In this document: positions 7,246 through 44,600 of the stretch, piece after piece
Layout of the letters: each line of letters begins with the position of its first letter
Numbering within the stretch: position 1 is the stretch's first letter
Program-made: the position numbers and the translations under genes
Notes under the pieces: generated by a model
What the model was told of the DNA's origin: nothing
The model's input: the letters and a program-made list of their open reading frames with translations, nothing else
Database searches by the model: none
Assembly (NCBI RefSeq): GCF_002216145.1
Contig: NZ_CP022278.1
Coordinates: 2,432,445-2,496,444, forward strand
Length of the DNA stretch: 64,000 nt
Direction: 5' to 3'
Source of the DNA: Neisseria chenwenguii
GTDB taxonomy: Bacteria > Pseudomonadota > Gammaproteobacteria > Burkholderiales > Neisseriaceae

Positions 7246-7380
7246 CGCATTCCACCCTGCCCTACATCCAAAACTTATAACGAAATCATCTTATATTAAA
7301 ACCAAGCATTCTTTCCTTTTTTCAGACGGCCTCTTTAAAGTAACGCCGTCAAATCAGGCTGTGTTTTTGCGTTTCAAACG

Positions 7381-7431
7381 CCGCCGTAAAACATTACCCG
7401 CCCGCCGTAAAAATTACGATAAAACGGCGGT
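7381..7431 (+). promoter_or_regulatory. Repeats and hairpin in the cysJ leader
   Basis: Two near-identical direct repeats, CCGCCGTAAAACATTAC (7381) and CCGCCGTAAAAATTAC (7402). The second also pairs with ACGGCGG at about 7424-7430. They end about 25 bp before the cysJ start. They may be a regulator site (CysB would be the obvious candidate) or an RNA hairpin in the leader; this is inference. Confidence 0.35.
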
Positions 7432-7456
7432 ACGCATGAGAAAAAAAGGAACCTCC

Positions 7457-9244
7457 ATGACCCAAGTCAATCCGCTGCCTGCGGAACTTTCCGCGCAATT
7501 ATCCGCCCTCTCCCCCACCCAGCTCGCGTGGCTTTCCGGCTATTGCTGGGCGCAGAGTCAGGGAACGGGCGCGGTTGCCGCTGCGCCCGCTGCGTTTGCC
7601 GACGCACCGGCCGCCGTTGCGCGCCGCGTAACCGTTTTATCCGCTTCACAAACCGGCAACGCCCGCCGCGTGGCGGAATCTTTGCAGGCCAAACTCAAGG
7701 CGGCAGGAGTGGGCGCAAACTTGGTCGGTGCGGGCGATTTCAAGAGCAAAACGCTGCCCGACGAAGACATTGTGCTGATGGTAACGTCCACGCAAGGCGA
7801 GGGCGAACCGCCCGAAGAAGCCCTGCCGCTGCACAAATTCCTGTTCGGCAAAAAAGCACCAAAGCTCGACGCGCTGACGTTTGCGGTGTTAGGTTTGGGC
7901 GATTCGTCCTACCCGAATTTCTGTCAGGCGGGCAAGGATTTCGATGCAAAATTTGCCGAACTCGGCGGAACTCGGCTGGCGGATTTGGGCGTGTGCGACT
8001 TGGATTTCCAAGCGGCGGCGGATGCGTGGGTTGATGCAGTCGTGCCGAAAGTGGCCGAACTGACCGCGCAGGCTGCCGCGCCCGCCGCCGCGGTTGCCGA
8101 TGTCGCCGGCGCAGCCCAAAACGGTACGGTTTATACCAAAGAGCAGCCGTTTACCGCCGTTTTGTCGGTTCGCCAGAAAATCACTGCCCGCAACGCGGAA
8201 AAAGACGTCGAACACATCGAAATCGACTTGAGCGGCTCGGGCATCCGCTATCAGGTGGGCGACGCGCTGGGCGTGTGGCCGCTGAACGCACCGGATTTGG
8301 TCAAAGAAATTCTGGATTTGAACGGCCTCTCCGGCAGCGAAACGGTCAAACTCGCCGACGGTAAGGAAACCGATATTCAGACGGCCTTGACCGAGTTTGC
8401 CGACATTACCCAAAACACGCCCGCTTTCGTGCAGCAATACGCCGAACTTTGCGGCAATGGCGAATTGAAAGCGCTGGCCTCCGACGCAGAACAACGCGAA
8501 ATCTTCTTGGCCGCCACCCCGCCCGTCGGCGTTTTAGCCGCCTATCCGCACGCTCTCGACGCGCAAACGCTGTTCGGCATCTTCCGCGCGCAAACGCCGC
8601 GCCTCTATTCCATTGCCTCTGCGCAGGACGAAGTAGGCGACGAGGTGCACCTCACCGTCGGCGTCGTGCGTTTCGACCACCACGGCCACGCCTACACCGG
8701 CGCGGCCTCGGGCTATTTGGGCGAACAGTTGGAAGAAGGCGCCACCGTGCGCGTGTTCGTCGAAACCAATCCGCATTTCCGCCTGCCCGCCAACGGCGAT
8801 ACGCCCGTGATTATGATCGGCGCCGGCACCGGTATTGCCCCGTTCCGCGCCTTTATGCAGCAGCGCGAGGCCAACGGCGACAGCGGCAAAAACTGGCTCT
8901 TCTTCGGCAACCAGCGCCTCTGCGACGATTTCCTCTACCAACTCGAGTGGCAGCAATACCGTAAAGACGGTCTGCTCACCCGCGCCGATTTGGCATGGAG
9001 CCGTCAGGGCGCGCAAAAAGTGTACGTGCAGCACAAAATCACGGAAAACGCCGCCGAAGTATGGGCATGGCTGCAACAGGGCGCGCACATCTATGTCTGC
9101 GGCAACGCCGCCCGCATGGCGCGCGACGTCGAAGAAGCGCTGCTCGATGTGATTGAATCGCAAGGCAAACTCAACCGCGACGAGGCTGAAGACTACCTCA
9201 ACGATTTGCGCGAAGACAAACGCTATCAGCGCGATGTTTATTGA
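7457..9244 (+). CDS. cysJ: Sulfite reductase [NADPH] flavoprotein alpha subunit
   Basis: Passes electrons from NADPH through FAD and FMN to the CysI hemoprotein, which reduces sulfite to sulfide. I start at ATG 7457 (595 residues) because AAAAAAAGGA stands just before it and family similarity begins soon after; an upstream in-frame extension of 32 basic residues looks like leader DNA. Domains in order: flavodoxin (from SASQTGN at 62-68), FAD-binding (RLYS at 382-385) and NADPH-binding (IGAGTGIAPFRAF from 454), ending in the expected aromatic ...DVY. The linker after the flavodoxin domain is Ala/Val rich. cysI is not next to it and must lie elsewhere. Confidence 0.96.
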   Translation: MTQVNPLPAELSAQLSALSPTQLAWLSGYCWAQSQGTGAVAAAPAAFADAPAAVARRVTVLSASQTGNARRVAESLQAKLKAAGVGANLVGAGDFKSKTLPDEDIVLMVTSTQGEGEPPEEALPLHKFLFGKKAPKLDALTFAVLGLGDSSYPNFCQAGKDFDAKFAELGGTRLADLGVCDLDFQAAADAWVDAVVPKVAELTAQAAAPAAAVADVAGAAQNGTVYTKEQPFTAVLSVRQKITARNAEKDVEHIEIDLSGSGIRYQVGDALGVWPLNAPDLVKEILDLNGLSGSETVKLADGKETDIQTALTEFADITQNTPAFVQQYAELCGNGELKALASDAEQREIFLAATPPVGVLAAYPHALDAQTLFGIFRAQTPRLYSIASAQDEVGDEVHLTVGVVRFDHHGHAYTGAASGYLGEQLEEGATVRVFVETNPHFRLPANGDTPVIMIGAGTGIAPFRAFMQQREANGDSGKNWLFFGNQRLCDDFLYQLEWQQYRKDGLLTRADLAWSRQGAQKVYVQHKITENAAEVWAWLQQGAHIYVCGNAARMARDVEEALLDVIESQGKLNRDEAEDYLNDLREDKRYQRDVY

Positions 9245-41138: not shown

Positions 41139-42281
41139 CTACTTTTTCAAAACCGTGTGCAGTCGCTGCGCGTTTTGCAAGGCTGTGTCCACGTCCTGCG
41201 CCAGCGTGACGAAATGCCCCATTTTGCGGCCTTTACGGGCGGCTTTTTTGCCGTAGAGGTGCAGATGGGAATGCGGGTCGGACTGAAGTGGCAGCCAGTT
41301 TGGTTCGCTGCCGTCTCCGCCCCAAACGTCGCCGAGAATGTTCGCCATGCAGCAGGCGGAAAGCAGACGGGTGTCGGCGGGGGGCAGGCCGCACATGATG
41401 CGCACCTGCTGCTGGAACTGGCTGGCGGCGCACGCGTCGATGGTGTGGTGGCCGCTGTTGTGCGGGCGCGGGGCGATTTCGTTTACCACCAGCTCGTGCG
41501 TGTCGCCGACGACGAACATTTCCACCGCCAGCACGCCGACGTAATCCAGCTCGTCGGCCAAACGTCGCGCCATTTCCCGCGCCTGCTGCTGCACGTCGGC
41601 GCTCAGGCGGGCGGGCACGATGGAATAGGCCAGAATGCCGTTTTCGTGGATGTTTTCGGCAGGGTCGAAAGTCTGCACGTTTTCGCTGTTCAGACGGCAT
41701 ACCACCACCGAAATCTCACCGCGCAAATCGACCATTTTTTCCAACACGCAGTCCACGCCGCCGTGTTCGGCAAAGGCCGTCTGAAGTTCGGCCAAGGTTT
41801 TCACGCGGATTTGGCCTTTGCCGTCGTAGCCCAGCGTGGCGGTTTTCAGAATGCCGGGCAGAAATTCCGCGCTCGCGTCGCTGATGTCTTCGGGTTTGCA
41901 GACGGCTTGATACGGCGCGGTCTGCAAACCGGCTTTGCGTATCCACGCTTTTTCCTGAATGCGGTTTTGCGCAACAGCGACGCAATCGCCGCTCGGCGAC
42001 ACGCGGGTGTGCCGCGCCAAAAAACGCATCGCGTCGGCATTGACGTTTTCAAATTCGGTGGTGACGGCGGCGCATTCCGCCAACTCGTCCAACGCGGCTT
42101 GGTCGTCGAACGGCGCGCACAGATGGCGGTTGGCAAATTCCGCCGCCGGCGCGTTCGGGTCGGGGTCGAGCACGGTCACGCGGTAGCCCATGGTTTTGGC
42201 GGCAACGGTGAACATACGTCCAAGCTGGCCGCCGCCGAGAATGCCGAGGTTGGCGGGAGGGAGGATGGGGGTGTTTTGCAT
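41139..42281 (-). CDS. purK: N5-carboxyaminoimidazole ribonucleotide synthase
   Basis: ATP-grasp enzyme that adds bicarbonate to AIR in purine synthesis. 380 residues. ILGGGQLGRMF (14-24) is the ATP-grasp N-terminal signature, and GRPHNSGHHTID-like NEIAPRPHNSGHHTIDAC in the C-terminal half is the metal/ATP part. PurE is not in the window. The Fic gene lies 44 bp upstream on the same strand. Confidence 0.97.
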   Translation of the reverse strand: MQNTPILPPANLGILGGGQLGRMFTVAAKTMGYRVTVLDPDPNAPAAEFANRHLCAPFDDQAALDELAECAAVTTEFENVNADAMRFLARHTRVSPSGDCVAVAQNRIQEKAWIRKAGLQTAPYQAVCKPEDISDASAEFLPGILKTATLGYDGKGQIRVKTLAELQTAFAEHGGVDCVLEKMVDLRGEISVVVCRLNSENVQTFDPAENIHENGILAYSIVPARLSADVQQQAREMARRLADELDYVGVLAVEMFVVGDTHELVVNEIAPRPHNSGHHTIDACAASQFQQQVRIMCGLPPADTRLLSACCMANILGDVWGGDGSEPNWLPLQSDPHSHLHLYGKKAARKGRKMGHFVTLAQDVDTALQNAQRLHTVLKK

Positions 42282-42325
42282 GGTTTGATTTACTTAGTTA
42301 ATTATGAACATAATTTTATGAATAT

Positions 42326-43057
42326 TCAGATTTTTGCTAATTTCTTCATTACCTCAAGTCTAAATTTCATAAATTCACTTAAGTCTTCTGAAATCCCTTC
42401 CTCTCCATAAAACCTCATGCTATCAATACCATGTTCAGGCGTTAAATTAAGTAATTTTCGTAGTTTGGAAATATATTGAGGATCAAAGTCTTCTCGCCCT
42501 TTTTGTCCTTTTTTCTTCACAGTGACACCTTGGATAACACTATTTGTCCTAAGATTTCTTATTTTGTAAACTGCACCATAGTCTAATAAGCCGTAATTGA
42601 AATTGGCTAAAATACTTTTTAATCGGTTAAATTTTAAAGGTCTATCACCTTTACTTTGATGGCGAGAATTCGTTTCTAAAAATTCAGCAATGACACTAAC
42701 TTCATCATTTCGATTTTCACAAATTTCATGCGCAGCAATTTGTCGAGTAAATTCATATAACTCATCGTCAGAGCATCGTTCTAATAATATGCCTAATTCT
42801 CCTAAATAATAAATAGTAGAGAGTAATGCTGTTCGTTTATTTCCATTATGAAAAGGATGATTATTGATGATGCTATGAAATAATGCAGCGGCTTTCAGAT
42901 AAGAAGTATCATACTCTGGGTTTAAATCGGGACGACTGGCAGCAGATTCAATTCCATTCTGACTTTTTACTCCAGGAGGTTGAATTGGATCTTCTAAATT
43001 AACAAAATAGTTGGTTAGATAGTCATGGATAAAAATAATAGTATTGGAATTTATCAT
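42326..43057 (-). CDS. Fic/Doc family protein with unrecognised C-terminal extension
   Basis: 243 residues, clearly AT-rich against GC-rich neighbours (foreign origin likely). Residues 1 to about 130 are a Doc-type Fic domain: KSQNGIESAASRP, then the catalytic core HPFHNGNKR (67-75). Lys74 replaces the second Gly of AMP-transferring Fic proteins (GNGR), as in P1 Doc, which phosphorylates EF-Tu; Asn71 stands at the Asp position of many members. I could not identify the classical inhibitory (S/T)xxxE(G/N) motif. Residues about 131-243 are a basic, then acidic extension (VKKKGQKGREDFDPQYISKL) that I do not recognise. No antitoxin gene is adjacent; the extension could act in cis or bind DNA (inference). 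Confidence 0.8.
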   Translation of the reverse strand: MINSNTIIFIHDYLTNYFVNLEDPIQPPGVKSQNGIESAASRPDLNPEYDTSYLKAAALFHSIINNHPFHNGNKRTALLSTIYYLGELGILLERCSDDELYEFTRQIAAHEICENRNDEVSVIAEFLETNSRHQSKGDRPLKFNRLKSILANFNYGLLDYGAVYKIRNLRTNSVIQGVTVKKKGQKGREDFDPQYISKLRKLLNLTPEHGIDSMRFYGEEGISEDLSEFMKFRLEVMKKLAKI

Positions 43058-43080
43058 TTTTGAATTTAATCCTAATATGA

Positions 43081-43097
43081 TTTATTGTTTCAATAAA
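43081..43097. promoter_or_regulatory. Perfect 17-bp palindrome upstream of the Fic gene
   Basis: TTTATTGTTTCAATAAA, arms of seven bases and a three-base centre, 23 bp before the Fic start (ATG at 43057). Good candidate operator for autoregulation. Confidence 0.55.
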
Positions 43098-43124
43098 ATT
43101 AATGCCGTCTGAAAAAATACACGG

Positions 43125-44600
43125 TTAGCTGTCCAACCCTTCCTGCACCATCTGCGCCGCGCGCAAAACCGCGCGGGCTTTGTTTTGGGTTTCCTGCCAT
43201 TCGGCTTCCTCGTCGGAGTCGGCGACGATGCCGCCGCCGCTTTGCACGTAGAGCGTTTGGTCTTTGATGACGGCGGTGCGGATGGCGATGGCCAAGTCCA
43301 TGTCGTTGTTGAAGCCCCAGCAGCCGACGGCGCCGCCGTAGATGCAGCGTTTGGCGGGTTCGAGTTCTTCGATGATTTCGAGCGCGCGTACTTTGGGTGC
43401 GCCGGAGAGTGTGCCGGCGGGAAAGGTGGCGGCGAGGATTTCCATGTTGTTCACGCCGTTTTTCAGACGGCCTTCGACGTTGGAGACGATGTGCATCACG
43501 TGGGAATAGCGTTCGATGACCATTTTGTCGGTTACGTTTACCTGCCCGGTTTGGCTGATGCGGCCGACGTCGTTGCGGCCGAGGTCAATGAGCATGACGT
43601 GTTCGGCGATTTCTTTGGCGTCGCTGAGCAAGTCCTGTTCGTTGGCAAGATCTTCGGCGGGGGTTTTGCCGCGCAGGCGGGTGCCGGCGATGGGGCGGAC
43701 GATAACGGTGTCGCGTTCGCGGCGCACGAGGATTTCGGGCGAGGAGCCGACGATGTGGAAGTCGCCGAAATCGTAGTAGAACATATACGGCGAGGGATTG
43801 AGCGTGCGCAGGGCGCGGTAGAGCGAGAGCGGGTTGTCGGCAAACGGCAGTTTCATGCGCTGGCTGGGGACGACCTGCATGCAGTCGCCGTCGAGGATGT
43901 ATTCGCGGATGCGGCGCACGTATTCTTTGTAGCGCGCTTCGCCGGTTTCGTGCTGCGGTTCGGCTTTTGCGCTGCCGAGCGAAAGCGGGATAACCGCGCT
44001 TTGGCGCAGCTGTACGCGCAAATCTTCCAGCCGCGCGCGCGCCTGTTCGTAGCCGTCTGAAACGCTCGGGTCGGCATAGACGATCAGGTAGATTTTGCCG
44101 CTTAGATTATCGACTACGGCCAACTCCTGCGAGAGCATGAGCAGGATGTCGGGCGTGCCGACGGTATCGGGCTTGCCGCTGTTTTGGAAGCGGTGGGCGA
44201 AATGTTCGAAATGGTAGATGGTTTCGTAACCGAAATAGCCGACCAGTCCGCCGGTAAAGCGCGGCAGGCCGGGGATTTCGGGCGTTTTGAAACGTTGGTG
44301 GAACTGTTCGATAAAGTGAAGGGGATTGCCGTCGTATTGTTCGGTAATTTCGCCGTTTTGATGGAGATCGACGTGCCGTCCGCTCGATTTCAGATAGGTG
44401 GTGCAGGGCAGGCCGATAAAGGAATAGCGGCCGAAACGTTCGCCGCCCACCACGGACTCGAGCAGATAGGTAAACGGCTTGTTCGCCAGTTTGAGATAGA
44501 GCGACAGCGGCGTGTCGAGATCGGCCAGCAGCTCCTGCACGAGCGGAATGCGGTTGTAGCCTGCGGCGGCTTGGGCTTGGAATTCTTGTTTGGTAATCAT
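43125..44600 (-). CDS. trpE: Anthranilate synthase component I
   Basis: Converts chorismate to anthranilate in the tryptophan pathway, with TrpG as amidotransferase partner. 491 residues. [15 protein letters not shown] near the start belongs to the Trp-binding N-terminal domain; [48 protein letters not shown] and [24 protein letters not shown]-like [24 protein letters not shown] form the chorismate-binding domain. trpG is not adjacent. I see no leader peptide or attenuator in the sequence upstream. Confidence 0.97.

Follow-up and report, generated by a model that had tools for sequence, protein, structure and literature searches.

The window analysed here is a 64,000-nucleotide stretch of the Neisseria chenwenguii genome (contig NZ_CP022278.1, positions 2,432,445 to 2,496,444), and our subject is a single gene within it, whose product has a Doc domain, a domain with the fold of the toxin HicA and a C-terminal helix that may restrain Doc in cis. 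We refer to it as the Doc-HicA-like gene; the gene and the parts of its product lie as follows.

42326..43057, minus strand: Doc-HicA-like gene, 243 aa, ATG start, from the open reading frame (ORF) listing
42668..43057, minus strand: Doc domain, residues 1–130
42833..42859, minus strand: Fic/Doc active-site motif HPFHNGNKR, residues 67–75
42440..42637, minus strand: HicA-fold domain, resembling a double-stranded RNA-binding domain (dsRBD), without the HicA catalytic His, residues 141–206
42404..42439, minus strand: conserved linker GIDSxRFYG, residues 207–218
42335..42403, minus strand: C-terminal helix, proposed to neutralize Doc in cis, residues 219–241, from the AlphaFold2 (AF2) model

Within residues 2–116, the protein matches both Pfam Fic (E 2.3e-11; 44.8 bits against a cut-off of 24) and TIGR01550 DOC_P1 (E 2.7e-13; 50.1 bits against a cut-off of 38.65), which bears out the sequence-only reading that HPFHNGNKR is a Doc-type Fic motif. 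It satisfies the consensus HXFX(D/N)(A/G)NKR of the Doc active site (PMC13034048); an alignment of 70 members (14 loci and 56 of the 120 listed homologues) shows no variation at H67, N71, G72, N73, K74 or R75, and these residues have a weighted frequency of 1.0, to two decimals, across 137 family sequences. The PADLOC matches (PDC-S23, PDC-S05 and PDC-M59B) cover the Doc part alone, and the BFVD search gave two matches at E ≤ 0.001, spanning 135–143 columns, which we assign to Doc as well. If P1 Doc is a guide, the domain would be of the kinase type and its target would be EF-Tu; in the alignment with 3k33, P1 Doc has Asp where the Doc-HicA-like protein has Asn.

The extension that follows consists of a HicA-fold domain lacking the catalytic His and, after it, the C-terminal helix. 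We regard this identification of the domains as very probable. The extension had been described as unrecognized, which is correct for named families, as residues 131–243 are covered by neither Pfam nor NCBIfam (the whole protein corresponds to phrog_18015 in PHROGs, annotated as of unknown function), but not for the fold: the AF2 model has an α-β-β-β-α, dsRBD-like domain, and superposition on HicA (6hpb_A) aligns 57 of 57 residues with a root-mean-square deviation of 2.1. Foldseek with the extension alone gave no match at E ≤ 0.001, HicA ranking eighth (E 1.3; probability 0.63); the assignment is based on the second structure comparison, with 6hpb_A, and on a profile comparison, for which the HicA profile used 14 of 24 matches (one below the cut-off, two at contig ends and seven divergent were omitted). 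The position of the HicA catalytic His, in the GSH region, aligns to residue 163, a Val in the window protein, and the weighted frequency of His at this position is 0.00, after rounding, in the 137 sequences. The consensus of 23 family members contains a basic KKGxxG stretch, and the mean weighted maximum frequency is 0.72 for the linker, 0.67 for Doc and 0.57 for the HicA-like domain. The proposal that the extension is a DNA-binding autoregulator was rejected, since neither profile nor fold searches indicated any DNA-binding domain.

No genuine stand-alone extension was found in searches limited to proteins sharing exact words: one search for the extension without Doc matched 22 proteins, 17 of them with Pfam Fic, and another gave ten matches, all with Fic. 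The five Fic-less proteins (P0124, P0125, P0127, P0128 and P0130) look truncated, because their contigs measure 535–2153 bp and each begins partway through Doc or only at the extension.

In the model, the C-terminal helix appears to take the position of the inhibitory helix of class III Fic proteins: 15 listed class III chains (NmFic, HpFic, MmFic and EfFic; including the point mutant 3zlm) align as far as model residue 238/239, whereas for the NmFic mutants 3sn9 (S182A/E186A) and 3se5 (Δ8), and for the other listed Fic chains, alignment stops at 133–137. The assignment of these entries to Fic classes is in part our own presumption; the classes themselves are meant in the sense given in passages of PMC5033356. 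Mean weighted conservation over residues 219–243 is 0.62, with L240 and A241 at 0.98. Moreover, L226, F229, M230, R233, M237 and L240 share the spacing of the six hot spots of Phd (56, 59, 60, 63, 67 and 70) given in passages of PMC9207808, and this phase is the most conserved of 11 (0.84; next 0.76); since an amphipathic helix would favour such spacing too, the likeness is a hint and not proof. The first interpretation, of a self-contained Doc with built-in control, is partly supported: the anatomy fits a control module, but one made of two pieces, the first with the HicA fold and the second a helix that the model places at the class III inhibitory-helix position.

Of 900 candidates for the family, 488 are homologues at E ≤ 0.001. 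Among the best 120 of the 488, identity is 51–86%, the named members are death-on-curing toxins, Toxin Doc or hypothetical, and a few proteins are short, for example P0118 (166 aa, labelled partial) and P0012 (213 aa); the nearest named relative, also of 243 aa, is 86% identical and carries the name Neisseria yangbaofengii. The extension is fused to Doc elsewhere too, a point that the sequence-only reading had put forward for checking: all 23 members chosen and aligned carry it (mean column identity 70%), as do the distant relatives L028–L031, at 26–33% identity. On viral contigs, 31 loci were confirmed, 15 of which begin no later than residue 10 and reach at least residue 241. Hosts carry the gene rarely: counting the window's own genome, it was found in 1 of 83 genomes of the taxonomic family and 3 of 369 of the class (E ≤ 1e-25), and in 4 of 399 of the order at E ≤ 1e-40. 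The ratio of non-synonymous to synonymous substitution rates is 0.01–0.07, in Doc and extension alike, in three of seven phage or plasmid copy pairs (of the other four, three are saturated at synonymous sites and one is nearly identical); purifying selection acts on the relatives.

In the window, the gene fills a slot between two genes that, from their sequences, we take to be purK and trpE.

41139..42281, minus strand: purK, conserved flank
43125..44600, minus strand: trpE, conserved flank
42282..43124, no strand: AT-rich insert between purK and trpE, the cassette slot, GC 0.31
43104..43113, plus strand: putative DNA uptake sequence GCCGTCTGAA, from the sequence, at the trpE edge of the insert
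43123..43138, minus strand: terminator-like hairpin, trpE end

The gap of 846 bp (from the last trpE sense codon) has 31% GC, against about 55–63% in 500-bp windows inside trpE and purK, so the description of an AT-rich gene between GC-rich neighbours stands. So does that of a gene with no neighbouring antitoxin in the window: the sole other ORF of at least 40 aa in the slot encodes 41 aa and is antisense, and with no second same-strand ORF of that length there is no partner hicB. Between 42200 and 43250, counting both strands, there are three terminator-like sites against 0.8 ± 1.0 in shuffles; the promoter scan at the locus found three against 4.0 in shuffles, i.e. no excess. The motif GCCGTCTGAA, presumably the Neisseria DNA uptake sequence, would be consistent with exchange by homologous recombination.

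Across the genus, 45 of 46 genomes were examined (G039 was omitted because contig ends divide its purK), and the order trpE then purK is kept in 34, the window's own included; in the other 11, the fetched stretch contains no trpE, and one of these has a restriction–modification (R-M)-like pair beside purK. The 34 slots hold the Doc-HicA-like gene (1), KptA (4), AbiGi-like genes (3), an R-M-like pair (3), GIY-YIG genes, full or partial (9), or no identified cargo (14); some of the genes that fill it in related bacteria are putative antiviral genes. Pfam confirmed four representatives (two AbiGi, one KptA and one GIY-YIG) and the remainder were assigned by tblastn to these, whereas the R-M-like pair was recognized by eye from its sequence. 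The slot fits the minimal mobile element as defined in passages of PMC3898611: whole-gene cassettes that differ between genomes lie between two conserved genes, as in the Neisseria elements described there. At trpE–purK the cargo is of five types or more, and some sites are nearly empty. Our literature search turned up no Neisseria paper on trpE–purK. The gene was probably acquired horizontally, and elsewhere too it sits in mobile and cassette slots. Within the cargo at this junction (L047–L100), the AbiGi-like genes are of two types; the 3.8-kb insert of L096 has unidentified ORFs of 477, 206 and 203 aa, among which the KptA found there may be counted.

Away from trpE–purK, a 7.9-kb Salmonella record carries the gene with filamentous-phage genes, a 9.1-kb contig (L024) carries it with Zot-like and protein-IV genes, and in Vibrio Tubulavirales it is annotated as two ORFs; it adjoins an endolysin in L016 and an integrase in L017. 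E. coli has matches, by DNA similarity, in at least 8 of 5,426 genomes, and in all eight the family member stands alone between psu and the integrase gene of a P4-like satellite. Passages of PMC9122126 describe this psu–int locus as a reservoir of antiviral systems, and the Doc-HicA-like gene is not named in them. Several neighbours were also observed: on the filamentous-phage contig L024, a cyclic-phosphate processing receiver (cREC, PF20274) protein at 7256–7561, upstream of the gene; in L029 (2685–3581), where the family member is a distant one, a protein with a predicted pPIWI-associating nuclease domain (PF18165), again upstream; and in two distant genomes (L006 8808–9629 and L012 2126–2923), an adjoining protein of 265–273 aa with CPVCAIENPREVM, downstream of the gene in one and upstream in the other, and possibly a zinc-ribbon partner.

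Several known systems invite comparison. The Doc-HicA-like gene is about twice as long as that of P1 Doc and has no Phd gene beside it, and the HicA-like domain and in-cis helix belong to its product and not to P1 Doc; the adjacent Phd that defines the Phd–Doc type II toxin–antitoxin module is missing from the slot. A C-terminal helix in the same chain, at what the model suggests is the inhibitory-helix position, may be shared with class III Fic proteins (e.g. NmFic), from which the protein differs in its Doc-type motif without the second Arg, in having no (S/T)xxxE(G/N), and in the whole domain between Fic core and helix. With the HicA mRNA interferases it shares the α-β-β-β-α, dsRBD-like fold, but it has no catalytic His, is fused to Doc and has no HicB beside it in the window. 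No report of a Doc/Fic–HicA fusion was found in the literature searched, including that on Fic/Doc in phage defence or in phages, nor in passages of PMC2701414 and PMC11594946.

We propose that the single-gene cassette encodes a three-part Doc, made up of a Fic kinase-type domain, a HicA-derived domain and a C-terminal helix, the last of which would complete the fold of Doc from within the same chain, a part that the helix of the antitoxin Phd plays in trans. In the resting state, the helix would keep Doc away from its target, which the analogy to P1 Doc suggests to be EF-Tu. The HicA-like domain, as a sensor or hinge, may read a phage-linked signal, either an RNA or a phage protein with affinity for the HicA fold. 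This signal would displace the helix, allowing Doc to modify EF-Tu; translation would stop, and the growth arrest would abort the infection and spare the population. We give the whole chain, from restraint by the helix through the HicA sensor and EF-Tu modification to abortive infection, about an even chance. It is also possible, although we would not rely on it, that these form a class of their own, of one-gene, self-neutralized Doc toxins in which the toxin chain has taken in a Phd-type helix and a former HicA toxin now senses the trigger; such an abortive-infection gene would be portable and fit filamentous phages of 8–10 kb, P4 satellites and transformation cassettes.

A number of observations weigh against restraint by the helix and a role in defence. 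The proposed docking of the helix on Doc is drawn from one AF2 model and alignment ranges; a regular expression over the whole protein found no (S/T)xxxE(G/N) motif of class III Fic helices, as the earlier reading had noticed; average conservation is lower for the helix (0.62) than for Doc (0.67); and 2 of the top 40 mutual-information pairs link helix and Doc, in a noisy analysis (effective sequence number 52). Since the Phd of Enterococcus faecalis leaves the catalytic motif exposed (PMC13034048), a helix in that place need not block catalysis. Both the activity and the phage protection are things that we infer, the latter from genomic location: the eight E. coli copies are one protein, WP_073464939.1, and, being identical, are not independent; 14 of the 34 slots have no identified cargo (gaps 43–660 bp); and KptA and GIY-YIG, which fill the slot in other genomes, are not established as genes of defence. 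Finally, there are candidate partners. In Achromobacter L006, 160 bp separate the gene from the end of a VbhA-like ORF upstream of it (7637–7840; Pfam E 3.5e-10), beside which we noticed no further Fic gene. In G412, a Phd-family match (C166:7708–7836) lies 1.8 kb upstream of the distant Doc-HicA-like gene of L011 (9623), on the same strand and just outside the stretch covered by our scan of 37 family loci; a 395-aa gene, presumably PurT-like, intervenes. Additionally, a separate single-domain Doc was found by tblastn beside the gene in 6 of the 37 loci, five directly upstream and one on the opposite strand.

The upstream copies (L020 5724–6254, L021, L022, L023 7428–7958 and L025 7485–7964) encode 159–176 aa with HPFFNANKRT and, in L020, L023 and L025, end 12–19 bp from the Doc-HicA-like gene; the one on the opposite strand, in L030, is similar. 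Doc genes are thus paired at these loci.

These candidate partners bear on the idea of an ordinary solo Doc toxin, with an antitoxin that is unlinked or of another family and a HicA-like extension that sets target or stability only. It would draw on the L006, G412 and second-Doc cases and on the seven Phd/YefM-family matches in the window's own genome, the nearest about 0.64 Mb from the gene, but no linked antitoxin is present in the window, and the counts argue against it. A Phd/YefM model built from the seven own-genome members, which recovers 7 of 7 controls that are the very sequences it was built from, found none in the stretches of the 37 family loci (several examined with 1.5 kb on each side); genome-wide, 6 of 28 genomes or records, and none of 17 virus records, exceed the cut-off. 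VbhA exceeds it in 1 of the 28, namely that of L006, and the control genomes had no VbhA match of any score; homologues of the L006 protein occur in 76 plasmid records, and the 4.3 kb inspected around one of them hold genes for partition and R-M but none for a Fic protein. Phd and VbhA were set aside as partners on these counts, and we consider a solo Doc unlikely. The expectation that the fusion is never accompanied by an antitoxin held for Phd/YefM at the 37 loci, but not in the face of the VbhA-like ORF, the G412 match and the second Doc. In the window's own genome, two more Fic matches lie about 1.1 kb apart (G000:C1:1321123–1322861); on the other strand, at 1320090, there is a match to Phd/YefM.

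Alternatively, the HicA-like domain might select the substrate, binding RNA or an RNA–protein complex (tRNA, the ribosome or the EF-Tu ternary complex) and bringing Doc to it, in which case the protein would be a regulator or weak toxin with no in-cis inhibition. The HicA/dsRBD fold, the basic KKGxxG of the 23-member consensus and the lost nuclease His would all suit this role; however, the C-terminal helix is kept in relatives down to 26–33% identity and aligns, in the model, at the inhibitory-helix position, and we judge the explanation improbable. In a further reading, the gene serves the selfish ends of phages and satellites, through addiction or superinfection exclusion, and transformation has left it stranded in Neisseria, where it is neutral by now. 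This would agree with its occurrence on inoviruses, prophages and P4 satellites and its rarity in hosts (1 of 83 family genomes), but is very unlikely, given the intact frame in the window, the 86% identical 243-aa Neisseria yangbaofengii copy, and a slot whose sharing with other accessory genes suggests recurrent use.

The self-restrained Doc that we favour touches two open questions, namely, how a toxin can be silenced when it has no antitoxin of its own beside it, and by what means phage-defence proteins encoded by single genes detect infection. The family combines parts of two classical toxins, and would permit a direct test of restraint of Doc by the helix and of phage sensing by a dead HicA domain; as one member lies in the P4 psu–int slot, such tests could be made in laboratory E. 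coli. For Neisseria, the trpE–purK junction offers a compact site for mining further defence genes.
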